Positions 17,511-57,119 of a stretch of 64,000 nucleotides of DNA are shown here, one piece after another (positions within the stretch are counted from its first letter, which is position 1; each line of letters opens with the position of its first letter). The position numbers were made by a program, and so were the translations under genes. The DNA comes from Glutamicibacter sp. JL.03c (GTDB lineage Bacteria > Actinomycetota > Actinomycetes > Actinomycetales > Micrococcaceae), in contig NZ_CP107575.1 in NCBI RefSeq assembly GCF_025854375.1, positions 3,410,001 through 3,474,000 of the forward strand. The letters run 5' to 3'. The notes below the pieces were generated by a model, which worked only from the letters and a program-made list of their open reading frames with translations, did no database searches and was not told the DNA's origin.

Positions 17511-18554
17511 TTGATCCCCGTTATTGTGCTCACCGGATACCTCGGCGCGGGCAAAACCAGCTTGCTCAACGGCTTGTTGACCAGGCCCGGAACCCGTGTT
17601 GGCGTGATCATCAATGACATCGGCAAGATCAACGTCGATACCGGCCTGATCACCGGCCAAATTGATGCCGCTGAATCCATCGCCGGAGGCTGCGTCTGCT
17701 GCCTGCCCGACAGCGGCGGACTGGATGATCTGCTGGAAAAGCTGGCCCAGCCAAAGCTCCGCTTGGATGCGATCATTGTTGAGGCCAGCGGCGCTGCCGA
17801 CCCGATCAATGTCGATCGGCTCCTGCGCTACGGCAATGCTCCCGGGGTGCGCCCCGGAGGCATTATCGATGTCATCGACGCGGTGCAGCACGATGATACG
17901 GTGGACACCGCGGCCATGGCGCCTGCCCGCTTCACCGCGGCCAGCCTCGTGGTGGTCAACAAACTGGATATGCTCCCGGAAAAGACGAGGGACGCGACCT
18001 TCGCGCGGATCAGCGACAGGGTCCGCGAGGCGAACCCGCAGGTGGCCATCGTTCCAGCTTCGCACGCCGCCATAGATCCCCAGCTGGTCTTTGATATCGC
18101 CATGGATGAAGATCCGGCAGATGAGCTTCCGCTGGCCGCTGCTTCACGGGCCGAACTTCACCACAGCCATGCCCCACATGCCCACGCAGTGACGGTGCCC
18201 TGCCCCGAGCCGGCAGATCCGGGGGCTCTGCTGGATCTTCTCGAGAACCCGCCGGCAGACGCTTACCGGCTCAAGGGCCACGTGAAATTGCGGACCGGTC
18301 GGGGCGCGCAACGCTTTCTGGTCAACATGGTCGGATGGCAACCACATCTTCAGTTGGCCACACCAGGTTCTGACTCTGCCGATGACGCTCTAGTGGCAGT
18401 TGGTGTGGAGCTAGATGAGCAAAATGTCGGTGACGTTTTGCGTGCTGCGTTGCGGCCTGCGACCACTGAACCATCCTCGCAAGATCTCATCCGCCTTGAG
18501 CGTCGGTTGATTCTCAGCTCTAGGGCCGCCGACGAGGATTCTGAAAGTAGTTGA
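17511..18554 (+). CDS. CobW/COG0523-family GTPase (metal chaperone type)
   Basis: This 347-aa GTPase has the P-loop GYLGAGKTSLLN at residues 8-19, the CxCC metal-binding motif in GGCVCCLPDSGG (about 63-74), VEASGAADP and the G4 motif VVNKLDML (about 146-153). The segment HHSHAPHAH (about 222-230) may be a metal-binding insert, and the C-terminal CobW_C domain includes YRLKGHVKLRTG. These proteins deliver zinc or another metal to client proteins. Translation starts at TTG (17511) with AAAGGAAG upstream, because the upstream ATG frame stops at once. No metal-related neighbours help name the client. Confidence 0.87.
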   Translation: MIPVIVLTGYLGAGKTSLLNGLLTRPGTRVGVIINDIGKINVDTGLITGQIDAAESIAGGCVCCLPDSGGLDDLLEKLAQPKLRLDAIIVEASGAADPINVDRLLRYGNAPGVRPGGIIDVIDAVQHDDTVDTAAMAPARFTAASLVVVNKLDMLPEKTRDATFARISDRVREANPQVAIVPASHAAIDPQLVFDIAMDEDPADELPLAAASRAELHHSHAPHAHAVTVPCPEPADPGALLDLLENPPADAYRLKGHVKLRTGRGAQRFLVNMVGWQPHLQLATPGSDSADDALVAVGVELDEQNVGDVLRAALRPATTEPSSQDLIRLERRLILSSRAADEDSESS

Positions 18555-18674
18555 AACACGGTTTGTAATTAACGCTCGGACCAGCGATTTCAGAATCCGT
18601 GCAATCACTTTGACCGAGGTGGCCGATTGTAATTGTGGGAATGCCACTGCGTAAGTGTTGTTAGTCTTTTCAAA

Positions 18675-18710
18675 GGCCGGCACCTGCCCTACGAGGAACA
18701 GTAGCCGGCC
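18675..18710. terminator. Hairpin next to the allE remnant
   Basis: GGCCGGC (18675-18681) pairs with GCCGGCC (18704-18710). Its position, just downstream of the minus-strand allE remnant, mirrors the terminator after intact allE at 28695-28725, and the sequence GCACCTGCC is shared by both. It probably also ends cobW transcription. Confidence 0.5.
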
Positions 18711-18741
18711 CGTGAATAATCGTGGCGAAGCCGCTTGGAAG

Positions 18742-18816
18742 GCGATCCGGCGGTTCTGGTCCTTGTAGATCAGGTAGCGGAAGTTATCCTAGCCGCCGGC
18801 GTAGCAAGCCTGCAGG
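18742..18816 (-). pseudogene. Decayed 3' fragment of allE (ureidoglycine aminohydrolase)
   Basis: These 75 bases align without gaps to 28759-28833, the last codons of intact allE, with 5 mismatches. Read in the allE frame the remnant gives QACYAGG, a stop (TAG in place of the Pro codon), then DNFRYLIYKDQNRR, against QACYAGGPDNFRYLLYKDQNRQ in the intact gene. The normal stop codon is lost. Weaker similarity continues on both sides. The fragment has the same orientation as intact allE and marks the left edge of a 10-kb accessory block. Confidence 0.85.
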
Positions 18817-18857
18817 TAATTGCCGCGCCTAGTCGTCCGAAATCTGCATGTGTCCGG

Positions 18858-20105
18858 CTAGTCGTCCAATTCTCCATTGGCGAGCCTGGACACGACTTCC
18901 GTGAGCATGTCTACCCCGGCCACAAGATCTTCGTCCCTCGTATACTCGGCTTCGTTGTGGGAAACTCCTTCCACACTGGGCACGAAGAGCATAACCGTCT
19001 TAACTAGGTCCTTCATGTTGGTCGAATCGTGGCCGGCCAAGGTCATGACTGGCTGATGGCTCAGTCCAAGATCAGCTGCAATCTTGGCGCTGAGCTCGAC
19101 TCCCTCAGGTTGGTAGGGAGTTACCGGCCAGGCATGTGAGGTCCTGCGCTCCACTTTGATATTGGCTTCAATTTCGATATCCGCCACGCGCTGGTGGAGC
19201 ATGGCATCGGCATCTCGCAGAGCAGATTCATCCGCACTTCTCAGGTCAAGCAACAGCGACACTCTGCTAGGGACAACAACCGGCGAGTTGGGGTAAACAT
19301 CCAACTGTCCCACCGACGTGTGAACCACGCCAGGGAATGCGTTTGCAATCTCGCGAGCCGCCACTACCAACATTGATGCGCCAAGCAACGCGTCACGGCG
19401 ATCTTGGATGATCGCTGAGCCCGCGTGAGCCTGTTCGCCGTGAACAACGAACTCATATTTGTTCGCAGCCCAGTTGGAATGAACGAGCCCGATAGACACT
19501 CCATCTCGTTCCATCGTGCGACCTTGTTCTACGTGAATTTCTGCGCATGATGCCGCTTTGGGACCTTCCCAACCACTGCGGAAACCATGCTCGTCCAGTG
19601 CCGCACGTACTGTTATTCCACGGCTGTCCGTGACATCCAAGGCATCTTCCAATGGCAACTTGGCGGTATACACGGAAGAGCCCATCATGGACGGCTTAAA
19701 ACGACTGCCCTCCTCGTTAAACCAGTTGACGACGGCGATATTGTATTTTGGCGTAGGCCGTACGTCATTCTCCCAATCAGTCTGCAAACGAAATGCTGCG
19801 TGCGCGGCAGCCAATACTCCAAACGCGCCATCATATTTTCCAGCCGTTGGCTGGGAATCCATGTGTGAACCCACGACCACAAATGGGGCGCCCGGAATGC
19901 TCTCCAATAGACCCCACTCGTTGCCGATCTGGTCATACTTGACTTTCAAACCATGCGACTCAAGAAGCGAACGGAACCAATTGCGTTGCTCTGCGTCGGC
20001 AGGACTGGCTGCTTGCCTGTCGACCCCTCCGTTTCCGGTGGCACCGAACGTGCTCATGGTTTGAAAATCGGACAAAAAGTCTTCTGAACTAGGGGCAATC
20101 CTCAT
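18858..20105 (-). CDS. M20-family Zn amidohydrolase (allantoate amidohydrolase/N-carbamoyl-L-amino acid hydrolase type)
   Basis: This 415-aa M20 metallohydrolase matches the hydantoinase/carbamoylase group. Metal ligands are visible in VVVGSHMDSQPTAGKYDG (His, Asp), NWFNEEGSRF (Glu pair), EIHVEQG (His) and TLAGHDSTNMK (His). Known members hydrolyse allantoate, ureidoglycolate-type compounds or N-carbamoyl amino acids. It is the last gene of a three-gene minus-strand cluster after the DavB-like and DavA-like genes (66-bp gap), so its substrate may be an amide or ureide from that pathway. That link is inference. Codon use is less GC-rich than in the flanks. Confidence 0.85.
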   Translation of the reverse strand: MRIAPSSEDFLSDFQTMSTFGATGNGGVDRQAASPADAEQRNWFRSLLESHGLKVKYDQIGNEWGLLESIPGAPFVVVGSHMDSQPTAGKYDGAFGVLAAAHAAFRLQTDWENDVRPTPKYNIAVVNWFNEEGSRFKPSMMGSSVYTAKLPLEDALDVTDSRGITVRAALDEHGFRSGWEGPKAASCAEIHVEQGRTMERDGVSIGLVHSNWAANKYEFVVHGEQAHAGSAIIQDRRDALLGASMLVVAAREIANAFPGVVHTSVGQLDVYPNSPVVVPSRVSLLLDLRSADESALRDADAMLHQRVADIEIEANIKVERRTSHAWPVTPYQPEGVELSAKIAADLGLSHQPVMTLAGHDSTNMKDLVKTVMLFVPSVEGVSHNEAEYTRDEDLVAGVDMLTEVVSRLANGELDD

Positions 20106-20171
20106 TGCGAATATCCTTTGGCTTCAAAATTGAAAAAGATGTGAAATATCGGCGGGGTCGTCGCAGTGGAC

Positions 20172-21842
20172 CTAAGGTAACTTGATCGGGCCCAATTCCA
20201 CGTAGCGGTCTCCTGGGCCGGGATTGTCCGGGTGGCTAGCGCCACCGAATTGGTTAAGGACTCCCCAGGCAGCGTTGAGTCCGGTGGTCACCGCACCGTC
20301 TGCCCAACCCCCTGTCCATGAAACGTCATCCCCCGCCAGGAAGATCCCTCGATGTTCCGGCGAATGCTGCTCTTGCATAAAATGACTAAACAAGCGTTCT
20401 TGGTAGCGGTAGTGGCCTGGCAGATTGTCGCTGAATGCCCCCATGAAATTTGGGTCGTCTTCCCAAGAGACCGTAATGGGATCTCCCAAAATATGCGAAG
20501 CAATATCGACCCCAGGATAGATCTTGCCCAGCGAATGGAGCATGAGACGTACTCGCTCATTTGCATCGAGCGGCAGCCATTTCAACGCATCGTCGTTCCA
20601 TGTATAAGAAAGACAGATGAGGGCTGGCTGATCAGGACCGTTGTCGAGCAAATACGTCCCTCGTGTCAGCCGGTCAGTCAGCGTCGTAGACATGAGTTCT
20701 CGTCCGGTCTCTGGGTCACGGTCTTTCCAGAACGGACGGTCAACCACCACAAACGTTTTTGATGACTGCATGTAGTGACTGCGTTCAATGGCGGTCCATA
20801 ACCGGTGACTGAATAGACTCTCATCGACATCAATGCGAGCTGAAAGTAGCCAAGATTGGCAGGTAGCGATTACTGCTGGATAGCTGTCCGGCCTACCCCA
20901 GGCATCGGTAACTTCGATGTCTCCTGGCGTTCCGTCGTCATTCCATTTCCTCTTCACTGCCTTCACAGCGCCCCGAGGATGCCCGGCGTGTAGCGAAGCC
21001 AGAGAAGTACCTTCCGGCCAGTGTTCTAAGCTTTCGGGAGCATGTGCCCAAAGACGTTCAGGGACTAGTTGGGCTCCACCAATGATGCGCTGTTGATCCG
21101 CATCTGCATCAACATAGACCACGCGAAGGATTTCCAAGAATGAGTCAGGAAAATTTGTGTCCCACCCTCCAGTTCCAAAACCAACCTGCCCAAACGCTTC
21201 CCGATATTCGAAGGGCAGACTGGAAAAAGCCTTTGATGTAGCGAGGAAACCGGAGAAGGAAAGATCATCGAACTTGGGAACAAGCTGGTTCCACAGGCGT
21301 TTAATCTCCGACAGATCACGATCTCGGATTGCCTGTTGCATCTGCTGGAAATAGGCACGCTCCTGTAGAGCGTCGTCCCACGCCGCGTTTACTTCCTTGA
21401 AGAACTCTGGAAGTTCCTCGACGCTCTCGGCATAGTGCTTCTGACCGCCCAATTCAATCACCGTGCTACCGGATGCCGGTGTCAGCGGGTTGGGGAAGGG
21501 CGAAGTTTCGATTCCGAGCATGTCACTGTAGTGAAAGAACGATGCCCCCGAACGAGGGAATCTCATGCCGCCGAGATCCGCAACTGGTCCGGCCTGTCCG
21601 TCTGGACGTCCTGCGCGCAGTCGACCGCCGAGACGTGAGGACTCGTAAATGACAGGCTTTAATCCGAGCTTCATTAGCTCATAGGCTGCGACTAGTCCTG
21701 ACATTCCCGCTCCGATAACGGCGACCTCTTCACCGTGAAATTCCTTCGGAATCGAACCCAGACCTGCCGGATGGGCAAGATACTCGTCGTAGGGGAAAGG
21801 GAAATCAGGGTTAAGCATGGTGATTGGTGGGGTTAATTTCAT
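20172..21842 (-). CDS. L-amino-acid 2-monooxygenase, DavB (lysine 2-monooxygenase)-like
   Basis: This 556-aa flavoenzyme has a dinucleotide-binding motif EVAVIGAGMSGLVAAYELMK (about residues 33-52) and the second FAD segment ADLGGMRFPRSGASFFHY. Further landmarks are GFGTGGWDTNFPDS and, near the end, GIFLAGDDVSWTGGW and SHPDNPGPGDRY. From memory, the order and wording of these blocks closely follow Pseudomonas DavB, which converts L-lysine plus O2 to 5-aminovaleramide, CO2 and water. Related enzymes act on arginine, phenylalanine or tryptophan, so the substrate is not certain. The nitrilase-type amidase gene immediately upstream is the expected partner. Confidence 0.85.
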   Translation of the reverse strand: MKLTPPITMLNPDFPFPYDEYLAHPAGLGSIPKEFHGEEVAVIGAGMSGLVAAYELMKLGLKPVIYESSRLGGRLRAGRPDGQAGPVADLGGMRFPRSGASFFHYSDMLGIETSPFPNPLTPASGSTVIELGGQKHYAESVEELPEFFKEVNAAWDDALQERAYFQQMQQAIRDRDLSEIKRLWNQLVPKFDDLSFSGFLATSKAFSSLPFEYREAFGQVGFGTGGWDTNFPDSFLEILRVVYVDADADQQRIIGGAQLVPERLWAHAPESLEHWPEGTSLASLHAGHPRGAVKAVKRKWNDDGTPGDIEVTDAWGRPDSYPAVIATCQSWLLSARIDVDESLFSHRLWTAIERSHYMQSSKTFVVVDRPFWKDRDPETGRELMSTTLTDRLTRGTYLLDNGPDQPALICLSYTWNDDALKWLPLDANERVRLMLHSLGKIYPGVDIASHILGDPITVSWEDDPNFMGAFSDNLPGHYRYQERLFSHFMQEQHSPEHRGIFLAGDDVSWTGGWADGAVTTGLNAAWGVLNQFGGASHPDNPGPGDRYVELGPIKLP

Positions 21843-21912
21843 AATTTTCCTTGAAACGTTCGAAGACTTAGATATGGTGTGAAGTTCGCGGCCGTGGCTG
21901 CGTGAAAATTGT

Positions 21913-22740
21913 CTAGTTCGAAGACCGATGCTGGTTTCTGACTACGTCCAGATAGCCCACTTCTGAGCGCGCGTGGGCCAGGGTTCCGCGGTCAATAGTT
22001 GCCTTGAGCAAATTTTCTGAAGCTTCCGAGGCCAGAATGGACTCACCCATCGGGGAAACAATGGTGCTCCTGCCAACAAACTGAGAACCTGCCTGATTGG
22101 CATAGGCAATATAGATCTGGCTCTCAACGGCCCTGGCACGAACCAAGAGCGTCGGTACCAGTGAAGAGTCAAATGCCGTTTGGTTTCCGGGTGTTGCATC
22201 CCTGCTAGGAACCGCTGTCGGTACACACAGTAGTTCGGCCCCAGCGAGGGCGGCAGATCTGACAAATTCTGGGAACTCCACATCGAAACAAATTCCCAGC
22301 GCAACTTTCATGCCTCGAAATTCAACTACCTTTGGGGCAACTGTCGAGGTGGAGAAAAATTTATTCTCTGCCTCGCCAAAGAGATGCATCTTGCGGTACC
22401 TCGCTACTTCATTCCCGTTTCTGTCGAAGAGGGAGGCACAGATGTACTTGTTATCTCCATCAAATTCCACTGTTGACGCAACAAGTCCGATTTGGTGCTT
22501 TGCCGCGATTTCTGCCAAAGTCCGTCTTTGCTCCGCACCGTCGACGGCGTAAACGGTGGATGGTTCATAACCGGGAACAAACAATTCTGGCGTCACTAGC
22601 AATTGCGTTCCTTGCCGTGCTGCTTTGCTTGCCCAGCGGCTCAAGGTCTCCATATTTTTTTCTGGATTTCCGCTGATGCTTGTGGACTGAAGCACCGCAA
22701 TTTGTATGGATGGCGACGGGACCGAGTTTTCTTCTGGCAC
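21913..22740 (-). CDS. Nitrilase-superfamily amidase, DavA (5-aminovaleramidase)-like
   Basis: This carbon-nitrogen hydrolase shows the complete catalytic triad: Glu in LLVTPELFVPGYE, Lys in RYRKMHLFGEAE and Cys in LGICFDVEFPEF. The YRKMHLFGE wording resembles Pseudomonas DavA, which hydrolyses the amide made by DavB. The frame is open from a GTG at 22761; the GTG at 22740 has AGAGG about 6 nt upstream and is my preferred start (275 aa). It leads the minus-strand cluster amidase, monooxygenase, M20 hydrolase and is divergent from a PucR regulator. Confidence 0.83.
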   Translation of the reverse strand: MPEENSVPSPSIQIAVLQSTSISGNPEKNMETLSRWASKAARQGTQLLVTPELFVPGYEPSTVYAVDGAEQRRTLAEIAAKHQIGLVASTVEFDGDNKYICASLFDRNGNEVARYRKMHLFGEAENKFFSTSTVAPKVVEFRGMKVALGICFDVEFPEFVRSAALAGAELLCVPTAVPSRDATPGNQTAFDSSLVPTLLVRARAVESQIYIAYANQAGSQFVGRSTIVSPMGESILASEASENLLKATIDRGTLAHARSEVGYLDVVRNQHRSSN

Positions 22741-22863
22741 CAGATCCTCTTGTCTCTGCACGGCCGACCCTTTCGATTGCGCTGAATATAGTGACTCATC
22801 GATCGTCGCAAGCCAATGGGCGCTCCGACATAGTCTGGATGCGCAAGTATTGGGAGGAGATTT

Positions 22864-22875
22864 GTACGTTCGTAC
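22864..22875. promoter_or_regulatory. Palindromic operator candidate, PucR/amidase divergent promoter
   Basis: GTACG-TT-CGTAC has perfect 5-bp arms between the divergent amidase and PucR genes. The 9-mer TTCGTACAT at 22869-22877 recurs at 24106-24114, upstream of the permease. Confidence 0.55.
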
Positions 22876-22911
22876 ATCACCGGTTCAACATGGATACGGG
22901 ATCATGAATAG

Positions 22912-24072
22912 GTGACTACACAAAATGATCAAGATCCAGAGACCGCCTGGTGCGACGCGTTAGATCGCCTGGCTGGAAACCTCGATCCTTTGGTCGATGG
23001 GTTCCTGGTTCGAATTCTTGCAGATCGTCAGTATGCGCAATCGGAAGTAAGCGTCGAAGACCTGCGCTCAACCAGTGCCCAAAGTTTCCTAGCCATGATC
23101 AAATCGTTGAAGAGCGGCGGCGAAGAAACGTCGGCCTTAGAGTCGTTGGCAGATTCTCTCGGTGCGCGAAGAGCCCGCCAAGGGATCCCCGTCGATAGCC
23201 TAGTTCGCGCAGTGCGCATGGACTTTTCCGTGATCTGGCAAGGGCTGGCTGCTCCTGATTCCGGATTGAGCTCCGATCATCTGGTGAGCAAGGGAGAACT
23301 GGTTTGGCAGACTGTCGATACCTTTGTGGCCAAAGTTCAGGCTCGGTACCTTCGAGAACAAGCCGACCTTGAGCGTGCCGATGTTGACTTGCAGCAGCAC
23401 TATCTATCGCAGCTGTTCAGCATGGCAGAAACAACGAGAACCGACATTCTGCGCATTGCCGGTGCCCTAAGAGTCGACGCCGACTCAGAATTCAGGGTAG
23501 TCGCAATGGGTCGAGAGGAAGGCGCCATAGTGCAGAGGCGTTTGCGCAGCCATCGCCGGCTTGACCGAACCTTCAGCATTCCCCAAGGGCACCACACGCT
23601 ATTCATTCATGAGCTCGCTGACTCCAAAGGTCCGATGGACATTCATGAACGAAACCTCTACGACGGGGTTGCCGTTGCTGTAGCTCCCACAGCGCATGGT
23701 CTCGTGGCGGTAAGAGACGCAAGCATGGCTGCTCGCGAAATCATGAGGGACCTTCCCGTCAACGTCACTGGAGTCTTCACTCTTAAGAACAGGCTGCTCT
23801 CCATCGCACGGCATCGACTTGCCCAGGTAGGGTGCAGTCCTGCAAACGCCACACTCGACGGGCTAGAACGAACCAGTCCCAAGGAACGCGAGAAAATCTT
23901 AGAGACGACCCGGGTCTTCCTAGAGACAGGCAGCCTGGTCGAAACATCAAAGCGTCTTTTTTATCACCGAAACACCATCGTCAACCGCATGTCGGCATTT
24001 GAACGGTACACAGGACTGGATCTCAAGTCACCCCGCGATCTTGCCATTGCTGTGCTCATCCTCTGCGATTGA
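22912..24072 (+). CDS. PucR/CdaR-type transcriptional regulator
   Basis: This 386-aa protein ends in the PucR-type helix-turn-helix: ETTRVFLETGSLVETSKRL, then FYHRNTIVNRMSAFERYTGL and DLKSPRDLAIAVLIL. The middle holds a GGDEF-like/CdaR sensor segment, and the N-terminal 130 residues are helical. PucR proteins typically activate purine, amino-acid or sugar-acid catabolism genes. It starts with GTG at 22912 without an obvious ribosome binding site, because the frame upstream is closed by a stop. Divergence from the DavA-like gene suggests it controls that cluster and the permease downstream. Confidence 0.86.
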   Translation: MTTQNDQDPETAWCDALDRLAGNLDPLVDGFLVRILADRQYAQSEVSVEDLRSTSAQSFLAMIKSLKSGGEETSALESLADSLGARRARQGIPVDSLVRAVRMDFSVIWQGLAAPDSGLSSDHLVSKGELVWQTVDTFVAKVQARYLREQADLERADVDLQQHYLSQLFSMAETTRTDILRIAGALRVDADSEFRVVAMGREEGAIVQRRLRSHRRLDRTFSIPQGHHTLFIHELADSKGPMDIHERNLYDGVAVAVAPTAHGLVAVRDASMAAREIMRDLPVNVTGVFTLKNRLLSIARHRLAQVGCSPANATLDGLERTSPKEREKILETTRVFLETGSLVETSKRLFYHRNTIVNRMSAFERYTGLDLKSPRDLAIAVLILCD

Positions 24073-24105
24073 AGAAGGCGCCTGCTACGGTCCCCGCTTT
24101 GGACT

Positions 24106-24114
24106 TTCGTACAT
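24106..24114. promoter_or_regulatory. Repeat of the PucR-promoter half-site upstream of the permease
   Basis: TTCGTACAT matches 22869-22877 exactly. It lies in the 248-bp gap between the PucR and permease genes. This gap also holds a small hairpin, GCTGGA (24165-24170) with TCCAGC (24181-24186), around an AT-rich loop. Confidence 0.35.
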
Positions 24115-24320
24115 TGGCACAGCTGCTTTTAAGGTCAGTATGCCCATGTTCCCTCAGTGTGTGAGCTGGAAATATTAATGTCCAGCATGAGGCGGGTCAC
24201 ACGATTGCATGCCCCACCCTCCTTGCTCATTTAGCAGCACGCCTGTCTCAGATTTAATCGCTCACTGATGCGTTCAACATCAAAACAGGCAAGCAGGTCC
24301 GCATACCAAAGGAGAATTCC

Positions 24321-25784
24321 GTGGCTTTGAAACCATCAAGCGCATCCCCATCAATCACGCCATCGGGGGACTCAGATGGGATGCAACGTGGACTCAAGAA
24401 TAGACACCTGCAGCTAATCGCTATCGGCGGTGCAATCGGCACAGGCTTATTCATGGGCTCCGGCCGGCTCGTGTCTGTTTCGGGCCCGTCGATAATTTTC
24501 GTCTACGCAATCATCGGCTTCTTCGTCTTCCTTGTCATGCGCATGTTGGGTGAACTATTGCTGTCCAATCTGCATTACAAAACCTTTGGTGATATTGCCA
24601 AAGACTTTCTAGGCCCCTGGGCTGGATTCTTCGTATCTTGGAACTATTGGTTTTCGTGGGTGGTTGCCTGCGTCGCAGATATAACCGCGATCGTTGCCTA
24701 CACTCAGTTTTTCTGGGAAGAAATCCCCGTTTGGATTCCGGCACTGGCTTCAGGCGTCTTGTTGCTAGTGTTGAATTTGCAACCAGTTCGATGGTTTGGC
24801 GAAATGGAATTCTGGTTTGCCATCGTCAAGATCGTCGCGATACTCTCCCTCATTGCGGTGGGCGCGGTACTGATCATCACCGGATTCACCCATGACGGCT
24901 TCCAAGCTTCAATAACGCACCTCTGGGATCAGGGCGGGCTCTTCCCCACCGGACTCAGTGGCTTCGTCCTGGGTTTCCAGATGGGTGTATTCTCATTTAT
25001 CGGCGTGGAACTCGTCGGTACCGCGGCAGCCGAAACGGAGAACCCTCGAAAGAATCTCCCCAAGGCCATCAACTCGATCGTAGTTCGCATTATTGTCTTT
25101 TATGTCCTTTCTCTTACCGTGATCATGAGCATTACACCGTGGACCTCTTTGGAAGCCGGAAAGAGTCCATTTGTTCAGACGTTCCTTCTCGCCGGACTAG
25201 TTCCAGCAGCCCTAGTCATAAACCTCGTTGTACTAAGTTCCGCTGCTTCAAGTGCAAATTCCGGTGTCTACTCCGGAACTCGAATGCTCTTCGCCTTGGC
25301 CAAAGACGGCCACGCCCCAAGTAAGATCGCGCTCACTGATTCACGTGGTGTTCCTCGACGAGCTGTCTTCGCGACTGCTGTTCTGCTGTTCTCTGCGATC
25401 CCGCTGTTGTACGCCGGCGATAACGTAGCGGCGGCCTTCGATTTCGTATCAACTATGTGCGCCACCTTGGTCTTGTTCACCTGGGGTTCGATTGTCTTCA
25501 GCTTCATTGTTTTTCTCAAGAAATACCCACGGCGACATACGGAGTCAAAGTTCCGCGTGCCCTTCGCACGATTGGCTCCTTGGGTTGTTCTGGCGTTCTT
25601 TGCATTCCTCATTTGTGCGTTCTTGTACAGCGACAGCACTCGCTGGGCTACACTCGCTACACCTGTCTGGTTCTTTGTTCTCGCTGCATTCTGGCAGGTG
25701 CGTAAACGATCGCTGCTGCGCGAGGGAAGGCCGCTAACCGGCGCGATCTCTGCCCTGCCCCACCCTCTAGATAGGGAAAACTAG
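24321..25784 (+). CDS. AAT-family amino acid permease
   Basis: This 487-aa transporter has twelve predicted membrane segments and the family start GLKNRHLQLIAIGGAIGTGL and FMGSGRLVSVSGPSI, followed by FVLGFQMGVFSFIGVELVGT and AAETENPRKNLPKAINSIV, both hallmarks of the amino acid transporter (CycA/GabP-like) family. It starts with GTG at 24321 with AAAGGAG 6 nt upstream. It follows the PucR gene in the same direction and shares a promoter 9-mer with it, so it probably imports the substrate of the DavBA-like pathway. The actual amino acid is not deducible. Confidence 0.87.
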   Translation: MALKPSSASPSITPSGDSDGMQRGLKNRHLQLIAIGGAIGTGLFMGSGRLVSVSGPSIIFVYAIIGFFVFLVMRMLGELLLSNLHYKTFGDIAKDFLGPWAGFFVSWNYWFSWVVACVADITAIVAYTQFFWEEIPVWIPALASGVLLLVLNLQPVRWFGEMEFWFAIVKIVAILSLIAVGAVLIITGFTHDGFQASITHLWDQGGLFPTGLSGFVLGFQMGVFSFIGVELVGTAAAETENPRKNLPKAINSIVVRIIVFYVLSLTVIMSITPWTSLEAGKSPFVQTFLLAGLVPAALVINLVVLSSAASSANSGVYSGTRMLFALAKDGHAPSKIALTDSRGVPRRAVFATAVLLFSAIPLLYAGDNVAAAFDFVSTMCATLVLFTWGSIVFSFIVFLKKYPRRHTESKFRVPFARLAPWVVLAFFAFLICAFLYSDSTRWATLATPVWFFVLAAFWQVRKRSLLREGRPLTGAISALPHPLDREN

Positions 25785-26284
25785 CGCGCATGGCAAGCCA
25801 GACTGATTGTTCATAAGCACGTTGGTCTGGCTCTTTAGAGGCTCGGACTGTCAGTTTCGAATATCGCCAAAGTCGTGGAACATTACAAACTGAAGTAAGA
25901 GCACGGAACTGAACTAATCCTGTCGGCCCCGCTCACAATTTCTCATGGCGCCGGGGCTGACCTTTGTCTCAACAGCAACAGCCACCTCTGGCTCACCGGG
26001 CCAGAGTACTCCATGCACTGCACCGGTGAAGTTATCTGAGGCTCAGGCAATTGGACTACTTTCGCCCGTGTCGCGCGCTGCATTGCGCTATAGCTGCTCT
26101 ATGAGCTTGTCTTTCCCCACGTTCCCGACCGATGTTCTTGGACCTGTGGGAGGTGCATTAGTGGATTGAGATTTCTACCAGTACCGGCGGAGGCATCCCA
26201 GTCCATTAGTAGTTCCATCGGTCCGTCCTACAAAGTCGCTTTTCACCCGTACGCCGGCGAAGAACGACTTTGTAGGACTGACAC
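25785..26284. other. 500-bp gene-poor region with gene debris
   Basis: No convincing intact gene. A short frame at 25861-25902 ends in NIAKVVEHYKLK and then a stop, which looks like the end of a lost gene. The plus-strand frame at 25945-26169 has unusual composition and no homolog I recognise. A perfect inverted repeat lies at 26225-26278. The region looks like decayed DNA inside the accessory block. Confidence 0.45.
26225..26278. repeat. Perfect 14-bp inverted repeat
   Basis: GTCCTACAAAGTCG (26225-26238) and CGACTTTGTAGGAC (26265-26278) are exact inverted copies 26 bp apart. It may be a terminator for the VOC gene (7 bp past its stop) or the remains of small mobile-element ends. The large loop is unusual for a terminator. 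Confidence 0.6.
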
Positions 26285-26668
26285 CTAAGCTGTTATTTCG
26301 ATAAGGTTTCCTTCACCGTCAGGAACAACACTTTCGTAGTAACCATCCCCAGTTGTTCGAGGGCCGCTCACGGTTCGATATCCTGCCGAATTCAACAATT
26401 CGGTCAATCGATCCACTTCCGCTTTAGAACCAACCGAGATTGCAAGATGGTCCCAGCCAAAAGTTGGCCTTTCCACCCGGTGAACCACGGTCGGGCGAGT
26501 CATGAGTTCCAGACGTGGTCCACCATCGAAGTCCAAGAAATAAGATTCAAACGCCGTGCGATCATTACGATACTTTTCACCTGCAACAGCGTTGAAAAAC
26601 TGCTCATAGAATGCGCGTGCACGTTCCAAGTCCTGGACATACAGTCCAATGTGATTGATCCGGATCAT
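26285..26668 (-). CDS. VOC (glyoxalase/bleomycin-resistance) family protein
   Basis: This 127-aa protein has the VOC fold: MIRINHIGLYVQDLERARAF and YEQFF at the start, then GPRLELMTRP, FGWDHLAISVGSKAEVDRL and DGEGNLIEITA at the end. Candidate metal ligands are the early His, the Glu in LELMT, the central His (WDHLA) and the final Glu. The frame is open to 26770, but the ATG at 26668 overlaps the stop of the MFS gene (ATGA) and gives the standard start. Function is unknown; coupling with an exporter-like MFS gene hints at detoxification. Confidence 0.82.
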   Translation of the reverse strand: MIRINHIGLYVQDLERARAFYEQFFNAVAGEKYRNDRTAFESYFLDFDGGPRLELMTRPTVVHRVERPTFGWDHLAISVGSKAEVDRLTELLNSAGYRTVSGPRTTGDGYYESVVPDGEGNLIEITA

Positions 26669-27879
26669 GAAGCATCCTCCGCGAGGACAGGATTCCGTCT
26701 TGGTTCTCGCAAGGCGGGCGATAGGAAGAACACTGCCATTCCAACAATCAAGGTAATGCTCAGTCCCCACCGTAGGCCGACATTGTCTGCCACGGTGCCT
26801 ACGACAGGGCTGGTCAGCAGAAAACCAACGCGCATTAACCAGCTGACCAGGGTCACGCCGGCTCCTTCATTCACTCCTGGAATTTTCGCTGCGGCAGTGA
26901 GCGCGCTGGGTACAAGCGTCGCCGAGCCGTAACCGGCTAGAGCGACCCCTGCGAACAAGGTCAGAATGTTGCTACCGGAGGTAATGACCAGCAACCCGCC
27001 AATGGCAATCAGAGCGCCTCCGACGCGTGCAATTGCGACTGCTCCGAAGCGGTGAATCAACAGGTCCCCCGCAAAGCGTCCAACGCACTGGCTTCCGACC
27101 ATGACAGAGAATACGATTCCGGCTAGCGACGCTGGCAGTCCTCCGATTTCAAGTCCTGCCATTCCTGCCCAGTTGTTCGCGATATCTTCGACGATGGTTC
27201 CGGAAATTGCGATCACTATCAAAGGCAACGCTGCTGCGAGGGCTAAACGCCATACGCGTCGTCGATCAGATGACGCTGGCTTTCCTGCCGTGTTGGCTAC
27301 GTGTCGCGAGACTGTTGGTTGGCTCATGATTGCGCCGCCGAAGACCACCGCGCTAATGAAAATCCCAACAAGCATCAGGTAGACCTTGATATCCAGTACG
27401 CCAGAAGCAGCCACAGCTGTTGAGATCACTCCGCCAGACAATGCGCCCAGGCTCCAGAACGCATGCATAGACGACATGATGGAACGCCCGATGACGCTTT
27501 GCACTCTGATCCCCGCTACATTTTGGGCAACGTCCACGATGGCATCAAAGAATCCGGCCAGGAACAAACAAAGTGCAAGTACCCATCCTGCGCCAGCAAA
27601 CGAAGCACCGGCGATTGACGCGGACAGCAGAAGAGTTCCTGCAACGGCAATACTCGTAGCTCCAAAACGTGCGATCAATGGTGCGGGAAGAGCCGAGGAA
27701 ACTAGTGCCCCCACAGCGAAAGAGGCCACGATGAACCCGAACTCGATAGATGTCAGTTCCAGCCGCTGAGCGATCAGTGGGTACCACGGTAGCAAAGCGG
27801 CAAAAATCGCCCCATTGCTGAAAAACATCATTCCAACGCCAGAAGTTGCCTTCAAGCCAGTTACTTGTTTACTTGTCAT
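26665..27879 (-). CDS. MFS transporter
   Basis: This 404-aa protein has about twelve membrane segments and the arrangement of small MFS permeases of the FucP/YcaD/CynX-like type, for example GAIFAALLPWYPLIAQRLEL near the start, FDAIVDVAQNVAGIRVQ, and SMHAFWSLGALSGGV, which is typical of the group. It is divergent from a DeoR-type regulator with only 11 bp between start codons and is followed by a VOC gene with a 4-base overlap. The substrate is probably a sugar derivative if the DeoR regulator is its controller. That is inference. Confidence 0.82.
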   Translation of the reverse strand: MTSKQVTGLKATSGVGMMFFSNGAIFAALLPWYPLIAQRLELTSIEFGFIVASFAVGALVSSALPAPLIARFGATSIAVAGTLLLSASIAGASFAGAGWVLALCLFLAGFFDAIVDVAQNVAGIRVQSVIGRSIMSSMHAFWSLGALSGGVISTAVAASGVLDIKVYLMLVGIFISAVVFGGAIMSQPTVSRHVANTAGKPASSDRRRVWRLALAAALPLIVIAISGTIVEDIANNWAGMAGLEIGGLPASLAGIVFSVMVGSQCVGRFAGDLLIHRFGAVAIARVGGALIAIGGLLVITSGSNILTLFAGVALAGYGSATLVPSALTAAAKIPGVNEGAGVTLVSWLMRVGFLLTSPVVGTVADNVGLRWGLSITLIVGMAVFFLSPALREPRRNPVLAEDAS

Positions 27880-27890
27880 GAGAGCAAGCT

Positions 27891-28664
27891 ATGCACCAAA
27901 ATGATCACATGCAACGATCAGAACGACATCGAATGATCATTAGAAGTGTCAGAAACGGCATGATGACTGTCAATGATCTTGCCCACCTCACCGGAACTTC
28001 CACAATCACCGTCCGCCGAGATCTGAATGAGCTCGCTGAGCAGGGGTCTGTACGCCGAGTGCGTGGCGGCGCAGCGCCAGCCCTGTCCCGAGGCGATGAT
28101 TTTCCATTTGACCTTCGCCGCTCAGAAGCAAATAATCACAAGCTCGCTCTCGCCCAGGCAGCGGCCAAACATGTACGTCCCGGGGATTCGGTCATCATCG
28201 ACAACGGCACGACCGCTCTCGCCGTCGCCAGGCAACTAGCGGGGCTTGGCATCACTGCCATGGCCCTTTCTCTCAGGGCAGCTGAGGAATTGCATAGGAA
28301 ACCTGGTAACCAGGTTCTAGTCCCGGGTGGCCCGCTGAGTTTTGACGAATTGTCGTTTGTTGGCGCAGGGACCGCGGAAGCCGTGGCATCAATGCGATTC
28401 GACGTGGCAATCATCGGCGCCTGCGCGGCAAATATCGACACCGGCCTGACAGTCTCGCAATGGGACGATGCCTACGTCAAACGTGCTGTGCTCAAGTCGG
28501 CCCAGCGATCAATACTGGTAGCTACCGCCGACAAGTTCAATCGCACAGCGGCCCACAAGTTTGGCGACGTGACCGATCTCGACACCATCATCACAACTGG
28601 TGATCTATCAGTTACGACCATCTATGAAGCAAGCCAGAGTGGCGTCGAAGTAATTACCGTATAG
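27891..28664 (+). CDS. DeoR/GlpR-family transcriptional regulator
   Basis: This protein has the DeoR winged helix (MTVNDLAHLTGTSTITVRRD, then LNELAEQGSVRRVRGGA) and the phosphosugar sensor domain with VIIDNGTTALAVARQL, and GACAANIDTGLTVSQ and AHKFGDVTDLDTIITT. Such regulators usually repress sugar catabolism or transport genes. The frame opens at 27891, but the ATG at 27909 (MQRSERHRMIIRS) gives the usual family N-terminus. TGATCA occurs at 27902 and 27934 and GATCA at 27916, a likely operator that overlaps the open frame. It is divergent from the MFS gene. Confidence 0.84.
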   Translation: MHQNDHMQRSERHRMIIRSVRNGMMTVNDLAHLTGTSTITVRRDLNELAEQGSVRRVRGGAAPALSRGDDFPFDLRRSEANNHKLALAQAAAKHVRPGDSVIIDNGTTALAVARQLAGLGITAMALSLRAAEELHRKPGNQVLVPGGPLSFDELSFVGAGTAEAVASMRFDVAIIGACAANIDTGLTVSQWDDAYVKRAVLKSAQRSILVATADKFNRTAAHKFGDVTDLDTIITTGDLSVTTIYEASQSGVEVITV

Positions 28665-28694
28665 GCAGGCAAAGCCCACCAGGCGTTAAAGCCA

Positions 28695-28725
28695 CCAGCA
28701 CCTGCCTGAAATGGGCAGGTGCTGG
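28695..28725. terminator. Bidirectional terminator between DeoR regulator and allE
   Basis: CCAGCACCTGCC (28695-28706) pairs perfectly with GGCAGGTGCTGG (28714-28725) around a 7-nt loop. It lies between two convergent stops. Confidence 0.8.
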
Positions 28726-28751
28726 CCAACATATTATTGAAGCCAATTGGC

Positions 28752-29588
28752 TTACAAAGCGATCTGGCGGTTCTGGTCCTTGTAGAGCAGGTAGCGGAAG
28801 TTATCCGGGCCGCCGGCGTAGCAAGCCTGCGGGCAGAAGGCGCGCAGTGACATGTAGTCTCCGGCTTCCACCTCGACCCAGTCGCCGTTCAGGCGGTAGA
28901 CGCCCTTGCCCTCCAGCACGTACAAGCCGTGCTCCATCACGTGGGTTTCGGCGAATGGGATGGAGGCACCTGGCTCGAAGGTCACGATGTTCACGCCGAA
29001 ATCGAAGGCCACATCGTTGGGGTCGAGCATGCGGGTGGTGCGCCACTTGCCATCGGTGCCCGGCATCGGGCCAGGCTCCACGTCGCGCTCGTTGCCAACC
29101 ACCGGGCCCGGAGCGTCCACGCCGGCCAGTGGCTCGTAGCGCTTGCGCAGCCAGTGGAAGCTGGTCAGTTCAGTGCCATCGTTGCGTGCCGACCAGGTGC
29201 TGCCTGCCGGCAGGTAGGCGTAGCCGCCGTCTTCGAGCACATGCTCGGTGCCTTCGATGACCACGGTCAGCTGGCCGGTGAGCACGAAGATGAAGCCCTG
29301 GACTTCTGCCTGCGGCTCCGGCTTGGTGGATCCGCCGCCTGGGGCAACTTCCACGATGGACTGGGCGAAGGTGGTGGCGCCGCCGGCGACCGGACGGTTC
29401 AAGACCCAGGCGCGGGTATTGGTCCACTCGGGGAAGACGCTGGTGACGATGTCGCGCAGCACGCCCTTGGGGATGACTGTGTAGGCCTCGGTGACGATGG
29501 CGCGGTCGGTGAGCAGATCGCTCTGCGGCGGGTGCCCGCCGAAGTTCGCGAAATAGGATGAGGAGTTCTGGATTGCTGGAACAGTCAT
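28752..29588 (-). CDS. allE: (S)-ureidoglycine aminohydrolase
   Basis: This 278-aa bicupin protein releases ammonia from (S)-ureidoglycine to give ureidoglycolate in purine/allantoin degradation. The N-terminal cupin carries QGFIFVLTGQLTVVIEG and the C-terminal cupin carries FAETHVMEHGLYVLEGKGVY, whose His and Glu residues fit the Mn-binding site of the family. The end CYAGGPDNFRYLLYKDQN is characteristic. It is the last gene of the malate synthase-DUF6986-allE operon. A decayed copy of its 3' end lies at 18742-18816. Confidence 0.92.
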   Translation of the reverse strand: MTVPAIQNSSSYFANFGGHPPQSDLLTDRAIVTEAYTVIPKGVLRDIVTSVFPEWTNTRAWVLNRPVAGGATTFAQSIVEVAPGGGSTKPEPQAEVQGFIFVLTGQLTVVIEGTEHVLEDGGYAYLPAGSTWSARNDGTELTSFHWLRKRYEPLAGVDAPGPVVGNERDVEPGPMPGTDGKWRTTRMLDPNDVAFDFGVNIVTFEPGASIPFAETHVMEHGLYVLEGKGVYRLNGDWVEVEAGDYMSLRAFCPQACYAGGPDNFRYLLYKDQNRQIAL

Positions 29589-29598
29589 GGCAGGATCC

Positions 29599-30852
29599 TT
29601 AGGCGTGGGAGCGATTCAGCGCGATCGCTTCGAGTTCGGACAGGGTGATCTGGGCTAGTTCGGCGACTTCCTCGGCGCTCACTGCACCGCAGGTGACCCC
29701 GCGGTGGATGTAGCGGGCGAGGGCCCGTGCGGTGGCGGGCTCATCCATGATCGTGGAGCTGATCTGGTGGACGTAGTTGCGCAGGCGGGTGCCGGCCGCT
29801 TGCAGGCCTTCGCGGAAGAACGCGAAGGTGGCCAGGTAGCGGGTGGGCAGCTGGTTTTCGTGCAGGTCCCAGCCCTGGTAGATGCCGCGGGACAGGTGGC
29901 GGGAGACCAATCGGGCGTGCAGGGCCCAGGCTTCGGCCATGTTCTCCGGGTCGCCGGCGGGGATGATATTGGTGGAGCCATCGGAGAGCTCAACGCCGGT
30001 GCCGGCCACGGCCACCTGCATGACATCCTTGGCGTAGTCGGCCACCGGGTGTTCCATGGACTGGTAGCCGGCGGCCACGCCCATGGAGGCCGAGTAGTCA
30101 TAGGTGCCGTAGTGCAGGGAGGAAACGCGGCCTTGGCCTGCGTGGATCAGCTGCGCCACCGGATGCGTGCCATCGGCGGCGATGATCACCTGCGGGGTTT
30201 CGACCTGGACTTCAAAACGCAGCCGTCCGGCTTCCAGGCCGTGGTCCTGCTCCAGCTTCTGCACCAGAAGCACCATGGCCTTGACCTGGTCCACTGTGGT
30301 GACCTTGGGCAGGGTCAAGCGCAAGCCAGCGGGCAGTTCCCCATGTGAAAGCAGCTGTGAAATGAACAGCCCCAGGGTGCGGATGCCGCGGGCCCGGGTC
30401 GGGGCTTCGAAGCATTTGAACCGGATGCCGATGAAGGCGGGAGCCTTGTTGGCGGCCACGGCCGCAGCGAGCGAGTCGGCCGCGGCCAGCACGGCCGCAT
30501 CCTCCTCGGCATCGCTGCGATTGCCGAAGCCGTCTTCAAAGTCGATGCGCAAGTCTTCGATGGGTTCGCTGGCCAGCTTGTCGGCCACCAATTCGGCCAG
30601 GCGCTGCGGCTCGGCCAGGTTCAGCTTGGCCGCCAGGGCGGACAGGCCCATGAGGCCGCCGGCAGCCGCAATGGCGTTCCGGCCCCAGGCCGCAGGCAGG
30701 TCGGGGGTGTACTTGTCGCCCGGAACATACACGGTATGGATAGGCTGGCGGGCCCCGGAATCGCCCGGGTAGGACTGTTCCAGCAGCTGGTCTGTGCCGG
30801 CTAGCAGCGTTTCTACGCTGTCCAGCGTGGACTCATCGAAGGGGTTGATCAT
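29599..30852 (-). CDS. DUF6986 family protein, aldolase/citrate-lyase-like
   Basis: This 417-aa protein resembles the HpcH/HpaI-citrate lyase beta fold. DLRIDFEDGFGNRSDAEED provides carboxylates for a divalent metal, LPKVTTVDQVKAM and FEVQVETPQVI supply the expected Lys and Glu positions, and SSLHYGTYDYSASMGVAA resembles the active-site segment of such lyases. The family is uncharacterised. Its position, overlapping the end of malate synthase by 4 bases and followed by allE, suggests a C-C lyase or synthase acting on glyoxylate or a ureide-derived acid. That is inference. Confidence 0.8.
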   Translation of the reverse strand: MINPFDESTLDSVETLLAGTDQLLEQSYPGDSGARQPIHTVYVPGDKYTPDLPAAWGRNAIAAAGGLMGLSALAAKLNLAEPQRLAELVADKLASEPIEDLRIDFEDGFGNRSDAEEDAAVLAAADSLAAAVAANKAPAFIGIRFKCFEAPTRARGIRTLGLFISQLLSHGELPAGLRLTLPKVTTVDQVKAMVLLVQKLEQDHGLEAGRLRFEVQVETPQVIIAADGTHPVAQLIHAGQGRVSSLHYGTYDYSASMGVAAGYQSMEHPVADYAKDVMQVAVAGTGVELSDGSTNIIPAGDPENMAEAWALHARLVSRHLSRGIYQGWDLHENQLPTRYLATFAFFREGLQAAGTRLRNYVHQISSTIMDEPATARALARYIHRGVTCGAVSAEEVAELAQITLSELEAIALNRSHA

Positions 30853-55844: not shown

Positions 55845-57119
55845 ATGAACACGCAAACAACAGATACCCTCAAATCTTCCGACGTCCGGATATTCGAAAG
55901 AATTGAAACGGAATGTCGGGCATACTGCAGGGACCTTCCCGTAGTCTTCGAAAAAGGCAGTGGTTCCTACGCCATCTCCACGGATGGTACCCGTTACTTG
56001 GATTTTTTCTCCGGTGCGGGAGCGCTGAACTATGGTCACAATCATCCAAAAATGATCGAAGCTGCAATGAACTACATTGCGGAGGGGAACATCCTGCATG
56101 GACTGGATATGTTCACCACCGCTAAACGCGAGCTGCTTGAAGAAATCGAGCGTACACTGCTGACTCCCAAAAATTGGGACTACAAGATCCAATTCACCGG
56201 GCCCACCGGCACCGATGCAAATGAAGCGGCCTTGAAACTGGCCCGTCTCGTCACTTCACGACGTGAAATTGTCGCTTTTCGTGGTTCCTATCATGGAATG
56301 TCAATTGGATCGCTCTCGGTCAGTGGCAGCAGAAAACTGCGCCAAGCGGGAGAACCTCTGCTCAATGAGGTAACTTTTGTACCGTACGAATTTGGGCCGA
56401 ATGGAAAATTCGATTCCATCGAGTATTTGAACCAGCACTTTGGAGACTCTAGTGGTGGGAACGAATTGCCTGCGGCAGTGATCGTTGAGGGCGTCCAAAT
56501 ACAAGCAGGCGTGTATGCGGCTTCTAGCGAATGGCTTCGACAGCTACAAAAGTGGACTAAGGCGAACGGCGTCCTATTGATCGTAGACGAAGTCCAAACT
56601 GGCTGTGGCAGAACAGGCGAGTTCTTCTCCTTTGAGAACTCCGGCATCGTCCCTGACATTATCACCGTGGCCAAGTCCATAGGCGGACTCGGTCTACCGA
56701 TGGCAATGGTATTTCTGCGCAGAGGCATTGATGCTTGGAAGCCGGGGGAACACACCGGAACTTTTAGAGGCAATCAGCTTGCATTTGTCGCCGGCCGGGT
56801 TGCCTTGCAGTTCTGGAGGGACGAAGCGTTCCTCCAGCTGGTCAATGACAATGCTGAAACTTTCGCTTCAGCGATGGAGAGCATGTCCAGTAGCACCCAG
56901 ATTCTGGAAACTCGTTACAAGGGACTGATCGGTGGCATTGATTTTGGTGTCGGCGAGACTGCGAAGGCCCAGGAGTTCCAGAGGAGAGCCCAAGAGGAAC
57001 ACATTATTGTCGAACGGTGCGGGCGAGAAGGTGAAGTCGTCAAGTTGATGCCACCAATCAACACTCCGAATGACGTGCTAATACAAGGGCTAGAGAAGTT
57101 GTCACGCCTCATTGGCTAA
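55845..57119 (+). CDS. Diaminobutyrate-type aminotransferase (EctB-like), orphan
   Basis: This 424-aa class III PLP-dependent aminotransferase resembles EctB, which makes L-2,4-diaminobutyrate from aspartate semialdehyde. Landmarks are YLDFFSGAGALNYGHNHP, IQFTGPTGTDANEAALKLAR, FRGSYHGMSIGSLSVSG, LLIVDEVQTGCGRTGEFFSF and VAKSIGGLGLPMA (PLP Lys), then GTFRGNQLAF. The frame opens at 55815, but the ATG at 55845 with AAGGAG upstream is the start. No ectA, ectC or siderophore gene is near, so its product must feed another route or its substrate differs. Confidence 0.85.
   Translation: MNTQTTDTLKSSDVRIFERIETECRAYCRDLPVVFEKGSGSYAISTDGTRYLDFFSGAGALNYGHNHPKMIEAAMNYIAEGNILHGLDMFTTAKRELLEEIERTLLTPKNWDYKIQFTGPTGTDANEAALKLARLVTSRREIVAFRGSYHGMSIGSLSVSGSRKLRQAGEPLLNEVTFVPYEFGPNGKFDSIEYLNQHFGDSSGGNELPAAVIVEGVQIQAGVYAASSEWLRQLQKWTKANGVLLIVDEVQTGCGRTGEFFSFENSGIVPDIITVAKSIGGLGLPMAMVFLRRGIDAWKPGEHTGTFRGNQLAFVAGRVALQFWRDEAFLQLVNDNAETFASAMESMSSSTQILETRYKGLIGGIDFGVGETAKAQEFQRRAQEEHIIVERCGREGEVVKLMPPINTPNDVLIQGLEKLSRLIG

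Follow-up and report, generated by a model that had tools for sequence, protein, structure and literature searches.

An Asn238-type L-amino-acid 2-monooxygenase cassette in Glutamicibacter, a candidate for oxygenase-dependent degradation of citrulline

We describe a cassette of five genes in a 64,000-nucleotide stretch of the genome of Glutamicibacter sp. JL.03c, an actinobacterium of soil type (contig NZ_CP107575.1, positions 3,410,001 to 3,474,000; hereafter the window), encoding a DavB-like flavin L-amino-acid 2-monooxygenase, a DavA-like amidase, an M20-family hydrolase, a PucR-type regulator and an amino-acid permease. The gene set recurs in other actinobacterial loci, always with a monooxygenase that carries asparagine at the position of Asp238 of the Pseudomonas sp. 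AIU 813 enzyme (3WE0), whose residue numbering is used throughout. We favour an amino acid with a ureido side chain, most likely citrulline, as the substrate of this cassette, although a cationic substrate remains a rival because of an aspartate at position 241.

Results

Gene content and distribution of the cassette

The five open reading frames (ORFs) were confirmed, with the genes for the amidase, the monooxygenase and the M20 enzyme on the minus strand and pucR and the permease gene opposite:

18858 to 20105, minus strand: M20 hydrolase of the hydantoinase/carbamoylase family (TIGR01879, conserved active-site positions), proposed 4-ureidobutyrate (omega-ureido acid) amidohydrolase
20172 to 21842, minus strand: flavin L-amino-acid 2-monooxygenase of the Asn238 type (relative of 3WE0, Asn238 clade 100/99), proposed L-citrulline 2-monooxygenase
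21153 to 21155, minus strand: codon of monooxygenase residue 230 (Asn), equivalent to AIU 813 Asp238 (from alignments, codon checked)
21144 to 21146, minus strand: codon of monooxygenase residue 233 (Asp), equivalent to AIU 813 Asn241 (from alignments, codon checked)
21913 to 22761, minus strand: nitrilase-superfamily amidase, DavA-like (PF00795), proposed 4-ureidobutyramide amidase
22912 to 24072, plus strand: PucR-type transcriptional regulator (PF13556, the PucR C-terminal helix-turn-helix, 46.7 bits, cut-off 27)
24321 to 25784, plus strand: amino-acid permease (AA_permease family), closest to the CycA (D-Ser/D-Ala/Gly) model

The profile matches agree with the family assignments of the initial annotation, which had called the same five genes. 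The M20 enzyme scores 271.4 bits against the TIGR01879 hydantoinase/carbamoylase model, above the curated cut-off of 204, and the monooxygenase matches the amine-oxidase family PF01593, its best solved structure being 3WE0 (L-amino acid oxidase/monooxygenase, E 7.6e-243). The nearest NCBIfam model to the permease is a D-Ser/D-Ala/Gly transporter, at 590 of the 732 bits of its cut-off and hence below it. The Glu-Lys-Cys triad, the catalytic motif of the nitrilase superfamily, is kept in 13 of 13 aligned amidases (E59, K124, C158). In the lysine pathway formed by DavB, DavA, DavT and DavD, the genes for DavT and DavD lie beside davBA; profile scans of the ORFs from 17511 to 30852 found no DavT/DavD-type gene, as the initial annotation had already remarked.

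The same gene set is present in nine further loci from Arthrobacter, Streptomyces and Rhodococcus. Eight of them (L031-L038; five Arthrobacter, two Streptomyces and one Rhodococcus) were found among the best 80 of 220 matches in a scan of genome contigs for monooxygenase relatives, where they hold the top identities (71-83%), and in each the M20, amidase and pucR genes adjoin the monooxygenase gene, accompanied by a permease gene. In the Streptomyces milbemycinicus locus (L036, 5420-5722) the permease match is limited to the first 101 residues, so this gene is truncated or misassembled. The tenth cassette (L163) came from one of 343 genomes of the genus around genome G218, at an E limit of 1e-264. 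Four of 390 genomes of the window's own family, the Micrococcaceae, pass this limit, which could miss more diverged members: the enzyme of the window is of the Asn238 type and the other three are Asp238 enzymes. In the search that yielded the Asp238 paralogue of the own genome, described below, only the 30 of 50 matches that came with a locus entered the analysis. A plasmid collection held 11 records with monooxygenase relatives at E<=1e-100 (best 68.4% identical), and the five fetched all encode Asp238 enzymes; an M20 relative at E<=1e-120 was found in only one of 396 genomes of a phylum sample, the own genome. The cassette thus looks rare and scattered. Since the set recurs in nine other loci, the five genes form a single conserved unit and not a chance neighbourhood, and both the co-occurrence that the initial annotation had proposed as a check and its view of the genes as a distinct amino-acid oxidation cassette are borne out.

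The monooxygenase and the genes that accompany it

In the AIU 813 enzyme, Asp238 lies at the ceiling of the substrate pocket and binds the charged side-chain end of lysine, ornithine and arginine; the D238A variant is weaker on these three amino acids, and no activity was detected for D238K, D238V and D238N, in the case of D238N with any of the substrates tested (PMC5832979). Citrulline is not mentioned in the text examined (PMC5832979). The window enzyme is 62.6% identical to the AIU 813 enzyme over aligned positions and retains R102, W235, Q258, Y416, W418, F473 and W516, which include the aromatic cage (F473, W516) and the residues that hold the alpha-carboxylate and amino groups (R102, Y416). 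We aligned 120 monooxygenase rows, 115 of them distinct, leaving out AIU 813 and a second copy of the window gene. The equivalent of Asp238 is asparagine in all ten cassette enzymes and aspartate in all 105 other distinct relatives. Gly514 is likewise confined to the ten Asn238 enzymes, and two further changes in the window enzyme, Ala515 to Gly and Cys254 to Ala, are common to most of the Asp238 relatives aligned.

A midpoint-rooted tree of AIU 813 and 37 of the 120 rows recovers the Asn238 enzymes as monophyletic (support 100/99), and the closest kin of the window enzyme is that of Arthrobacter terricola (L031; 99/96), to which it is 83% identical. The phylogeny, the other check put forward in the initial annotation, thereby places the enzyme among the 2-monooxygenases, in agreement with its match to 3WE0. 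The sister clade of the Asn238 group under this root (99/95) consists of three Asp238 enzymes (L011, L017, L090), each encoded next to an agmatinase-type gene. The own genome carries a separate Asp238 paralogue with a permease of a different family, and pairs of Asn238 and Asp238 paralogues occur in three other genomes (L031/L047, L032/L089, L034/L082).

Gene content differs between the two residue types. It was counted within 5 kb of the monooxygenase gene, and for the Asp238 type in 70 loci, not de-duplicated, whose flanks reach 5 kb or more on each side; these counts take no account of relatedness among loci. An M20 gene is present in 10/10 Asn238 loci and in 0/70 Asp238 loci (nor in any of 40 with shorter flanks), a PucR of the window type in 10/10 and 0/70, and a permease of the window or cassette type in 9/10 and 0/70, whereas the other permease family is found in none of the ten and in 65 of the 70. 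An amidase accompanies both (10/10 and 56/70). An agmatinase-type ureohydrolase is absent from all ten Asn238 loci and present in 2/70 Asp238 loci and 6/40 with shorter flanks (8 of 110 rows). The Asp238-linked permeases scanned (L054, L164, L169) have matches that do not reach the cut-offs, to TIGR00909, to TIGR00906 (cationic amino acid permease) and to a model for a branched-chain transporter. Two other cassette permeases scanned (L034, L163) are nearest to the L-asparagine permease model (AnsP), again below cut-off, whereas that of the window is nearest to CycA. The permeases of the other cassettes have 62-86% identity to that of L037 and 36-39% to that of the window.

An arginine monooxygenase and a 4-guanidinobutyramide hydrolase have been named in a polyketide starter route that leads from arginine through 4-guanidinobutyramide to 4-guanidinobutyrate (PMC10322714). 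The arginine 2-monooxygenase route and the cassette have in common a monooxygenase and an amidase, and the Asp238 sister clade adds the agmatinase-type gene; they differ in that the ten Asn238 loci have a carbamoylase in place of such a ureohydrolase. Because the Asp238 sister clade adjoins an agmatinase-type gene, the final hydrolase would track the side chain, with a ureohydrolase for a guanidino group and a carbamoylase for a ureido group. On a plasmid of Tsukamurella tyrosinosolvens (L169, 2728-7653), speB and the genes for a permease, a carbon-nitrogen hydrolase and an Asp238 monooxygenase (annotated as an oxidoreductase) are consecutive; this is likely an arginine 2-monooxygenase operon.

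The M20 hydrolase

The metal ligands, the catalytic Glu, the Gln, the His and the carboxylate-binding Arg, whose roles are taken from PMC10952681, are kept in the M20 enzyme of the window, in those of the nine other cassettes and in all other aligned rows. The initial annotation had suggested that this enzyme hydrolyses a later ureide or amide, and hydrolysis of a ureide is its likely role. The carboxylate-binding Arg suggests that it would act after the amidase, and an M20 carbamoylase of Rhizobium radiobacter hydrolyses N-carbamoyl-gamma-aminobutyric acid (PMC10952681). Family model and active-site positions are shared with the M20 group of N-carbamoyl-beta-alanine amidohydrolases, beta-alanine synthases and L-carbamoylases; the differences are a valine at the position of Asn309 of beta-alanine synthase and a context of amino-acid oxidation instead of pyrimidine breakdown.

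The M20 enzyme of the window seems, from its sequence relationships, to have been recruited independently of those of the other cassettes. Its identity is 71-78% with non-cassette M20 enzymes (the best 19 listed with loci) and 59-63% with the M20 enzymes of the nine other cassettes. It groups with two non-cassette relatives (L131, L132) with support of 100/99 in a first tree, from which eight duplicate rows had been dropped, and 100/98 in a thinned tree, from which the long rows L149 and L150 and a further seven near-identical rows were also removed. When the window M20 is constrained to one clade with the M20s of eight cassettes from Arthrobacter and Streptomyces, the approximately unbiased (AU) test rejects the tree (p-AU 0.0105; 0.0026 with Rhodococcus added); this constraint was defined after the first tree had been seen, and the M20 sample comes mostly from one family. 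Such an apparent second recruitment of the same type of enzyme is the strongest indication that the pathway includes the M20 step. Genomes with an M20 relative are frequent in the family of the window (129/395 at E<=1e-110), and the lack of an M20 gene beside Asp238 monooxygenases is therefore not due to a lack of supply.

Among the 19 contexts of its kin (L131-L139, L142-L148 and L150 among them), a thiamine pyrophosphate (TPP) enzyme occurs in 12, a YtcJ-like amidohydrolase in 13, a PucR relative in 15 and an aminobutyraldehyde-dehydrogenase-like gene in 4 (model score 588 of 615 bits). These M20/TPP clusters possibly encode a route from 2-ketoarginine to gamma-aminobutyric acid (GABA). A module of a ShiA-like transporter, RidA and an RraA-like protein lies near five of the eight named cassettes (L033, L034, L036, L037, L038) and also near several of the M20/TPP clusters.

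Candidate operators

Two sites resembling operators were found in the window:

22863 to 22876, no strand assigned: TGTACGTTCGTACA, a perfect palindrome between the amidase and pucR genes, kept in some of the other cassette loci, candidate PucR operator
24099 to 24114, plus strand: second operator-like site, with 3/16 mismatches, upstream of the permease gene

The 14-mer has three matches in the window at up to two mismatches, two of which are the two strands of the palindrome itself, against 0.07 expected. TGTACGTTCGTACA is identical in L033 and L034, and against its 16-mer form L032 and L035 each differ at a single position and L031 at three. The Rhodococcus locus (L038) has two four-mismatch sites in the gap between pucR and the amidase gene (6872, 7058), and the three Streptomyces loci have no operator-like site with fewer than five mismatches. 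The gap that separates the permease ORF from the glyoxalase-like ORF holds a candidate terminator (26221-26282), an inverted repeat of 27 nt whose loop is 8 nt long.

An inserted island

The cassette lies on a low-GC island with clear boundaries:

18817 to 28749, no strand assigned: inserted island of 9.9 kb bearing the cassette (GC relative to flanks; genomes G002 and G006 contiguous across the site)
18733 to 18816, no strand assigned: 84-bp repeat, a duplicated 3' end of the flanking cupin gene
28750 to 28833, no strand assigned: 84-bp repeat, the copy at the 3' end of the cupin gene

The island has a GC content of 53.9%, against 60.7 and 62.1% in the 10 kb on each side. Of five genomes of the same genus that were compared, G002 and G006 have the empty site and the other three (G004, G014, G016) differ there. 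The cassette is a horizontally acquired, mobile catabolic unit, and family profile scans of the eight island ORFs covered found no integrase. The island holds three more genes, for a glyoxalase-like protein, a major facilitator superfamily (MFS) transporter and a DeoR regulator. As listed, the glyoxalase-like and MFS ORFs overlap (26285-27879), the former probably starting at an internal ATG, and this region has no PADLOC match. A role of the M20 enzyme in pyrimidine or purine breakdown was considered in view of the neighbouring genes, a cupin gene, a DUF6986 gene and an ORF that by eye resembles malate synthase; these probably stand outside the pathway of the cassette, which is set apart from them by the boundary of the island.

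Discussion

Two carbon-nitrogen hydrolases beside a single 2-monooxygenase suggest a product with a second hydrolysable C-N group besides the newly formed amide, and a ureido group is what a neutral end at position 238 and a carbamoylase would indicate. Citrulline, which has such a group, is isosteric with arginine but uncharged. In the pathway that we propose, the permease would import L-citrulline, the flavin 2-monooxygenase would convert it by oxidative decarboxylation to 4-ureidobutyramide, the nitrilase-type amidase would hydrolyse this to 4-ureidobutyrate, and the M20 carbamoylase would yield GABA, CO2 and NH3, with PucR possibly controlling the cassette through the palindrome. GABA would pass to succinate by the action of a transaminase and a dehydrogenase encoded outside the cassette, and the genome has a gene for a GabT-like GABA transaminase (573.6 bits, cut-off 506.7); a class III aminotransferase 30 kb from the cassette (55932-57101) falls below the GABA-transaminase cut-off. 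We consider the chances that the cassette imports and degrades L-citrulline by this oxygenase route to be about even.

The closest characterised systems are the AIU 813 enzyme and DavB, which share with the cassette the overall sequence, the aromatic cage, R102, Y416, Q258, W235 and W418, and an adjoining nitrilase-type amidase. The cassette differs from them in Asn238, Asp241, Gly515 and Ala254, in the added M20 enzyme and PucR, in its permease and in lacking adjoining DavT and DavD. The citrullinases Ctu and CtlX would likewise act on citrulline, and CtlX offers a precedent for the exchange of Asp for Asn, since the two guanidino-binding aspartates of arginine deiminase relatives are asparagines in this putative citrullinase (PMC9007349). 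The assumed product of CtlX is ornithine, whereas the present route would begin with loss of the carboxyl carbon and end in GABA.

Several observations weigh against citrulline as the substrate. The chief ground for caution is that the D238N/N241D swap is exact: at position 241 each of the ten Asn238 enzymes has aspartate, and each of the 105 distinct Asp238 enzymes has asparagine. An acidic group may have shifted to 241 instead of disappearing, and the AlphaFold model (mean predicted local distance difference test score, pLDDT, 49.9) is too poor to place residue 241 relative to the pocket. Asn238 arose once, so that its co-occurrence with M20 outside the window does not amount to many independent events. 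The branch that next parts the window M20 from those of the cassettes has support of 98/95 in the first tree and 88/95 in the thinned one, and the kin of the window M20 occupy other, uncharacterised clusters. The valine at the position of Asn309 of beta-alanine synthase is found in all M20 rows aligned, the window enzyme included, and the substrate may therefore differ from those of classical carbamoylases. The best match to succinate-semialdehyde dehydrogenase in the own genome, among several aldehyde dehydrogenases, scores 565.5 bits, below the cut-off of 646.4. No arginine deiminase match (TIGR01078) was found in the own genome, hence there is no obvious internal source of citrulline, which would therefore come from outside. 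Lastly, residue 254, which sets the balance between oxidase and monooxygenase activity in AIU 813 (PMC5832979), is alanine in the window enzyme, and the type of reaction is therefore uncertain.

The swap is also the argument for a cationic substrate (lysine, ornithine, arginine or homoarginine) held by Asp241 in place of Asp238, with the M20 enzyme in another reaction. The D238N variant of AIU 813 is dead in an enzyme that has Asn241 (PMC5832979), and a cationic substrate would leave to be explained why an Asp238 paralogue is already present in four genomes, the own one included, why an M20 enzyme was recruited again in the window and why the permease type switches with Asn238; we regard this explanation as unlikely, though foremost among the alternatives. 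The lysine or arginine suggested in the initial annotation is accordingly disfavoured by an Asn238 that extends across the clade, by the own Asp238 paralogue and by the missing ureohydrolase of a guanidino route, with Asp241 keeping the cationic option. Next comes the same chemistry on another omega-ureido amino acid, either homocitrulline, with 5-ureidovalerate and then 5-aminovalerate as products, or one with a shorter chain, for example albizziine. Asn238 and a carbamoylase require only a ureido end, and AIU 813 takes substrates of both ornithine and lysine length (PMC5832979). The sister clade looks arginine-linked, however, which fits citrulline as the isostere of arginine, and the aminobutyraldehyde-dehydrogenase-like gene beside some M20 kin hints at a four-carbon chain; this too we think unlikely.

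A neutral side-chain end would equally suit an N-acylated basic amino acid (N-acetyl-ornithine, N-acetyl-lysine) or a side-chain amide (glutamine, asparagine), with the M20 enzyme as a deacylase, the name that one M20 relative in the PDB bears; the below-cut-off resemblance of the L034 and L163 permeases to AnsP points the same way. Wild-type AIU 813 and its D238F variant have no oxidase activity on glutamine or asparagine, however, and for D238N none was seen with any tested substrate (PMC5832979), and a deacylase sits poorly with an M20 score above the hydantoinase/carbamoylase cut-off, which together make such substrates quite improbable. Finally, the M20 or the nitrilase-type enzyme might first make ornithine from citrulline, for oxidation by the monooxygenase, an order for which the Francisella citrullinase Ctu, itself a member of PF00795, provides a parallel (PMC9007349). 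An enzyme acting on ornithine would be expected to retain Asp238, and AIU 813 D238N has no detected activity on lysine, ornithine or arginine (PMC5832979); we judge this scheme highly improbable.

Among the titles listed by our literature search, which had most subscription journals outside its coverage, none concerned a citrulline 2-monooxygenase or a catabolic role of ureidobutyramide; some belong to metabolomics papers that name 4-ureidobutyrate. Taken further, the citrulline proposal would describe an unreported oxygenase pathway that descended from an ancestor of the arginine type, was put together on more than one occasion and meets, at 4-ureidobutyrate, a second, as yet uncharacterised pathway of actinobacteria, with TPP decarboxylase, aminobutyraldehyde-type dehydrogenase, YtcJ-like amidohydrolase and the same M20 enzyme, perhaps leading from 2-ketoarginine to GABA by deimination; in this extended form it is speculative and rather doubtful as a whole.

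According to a published rule, a monooxygenase beside a PF00795 hydrolase indicates lysine and not tryptophan catabolism (PMC12462448), under which automatic annotation could misassign the cassette. If our proposal is true, residue 238 would help to tell DavB-like genes for basic amino acids from those for citrulline by sequence, and an M20 subfamily common in the Micrococcaceae would gain a guess at its substrate. Bacteria that hold the cassette would then have an oxygen-dependent means of using citrulline that bypasses ornithine and arginine.

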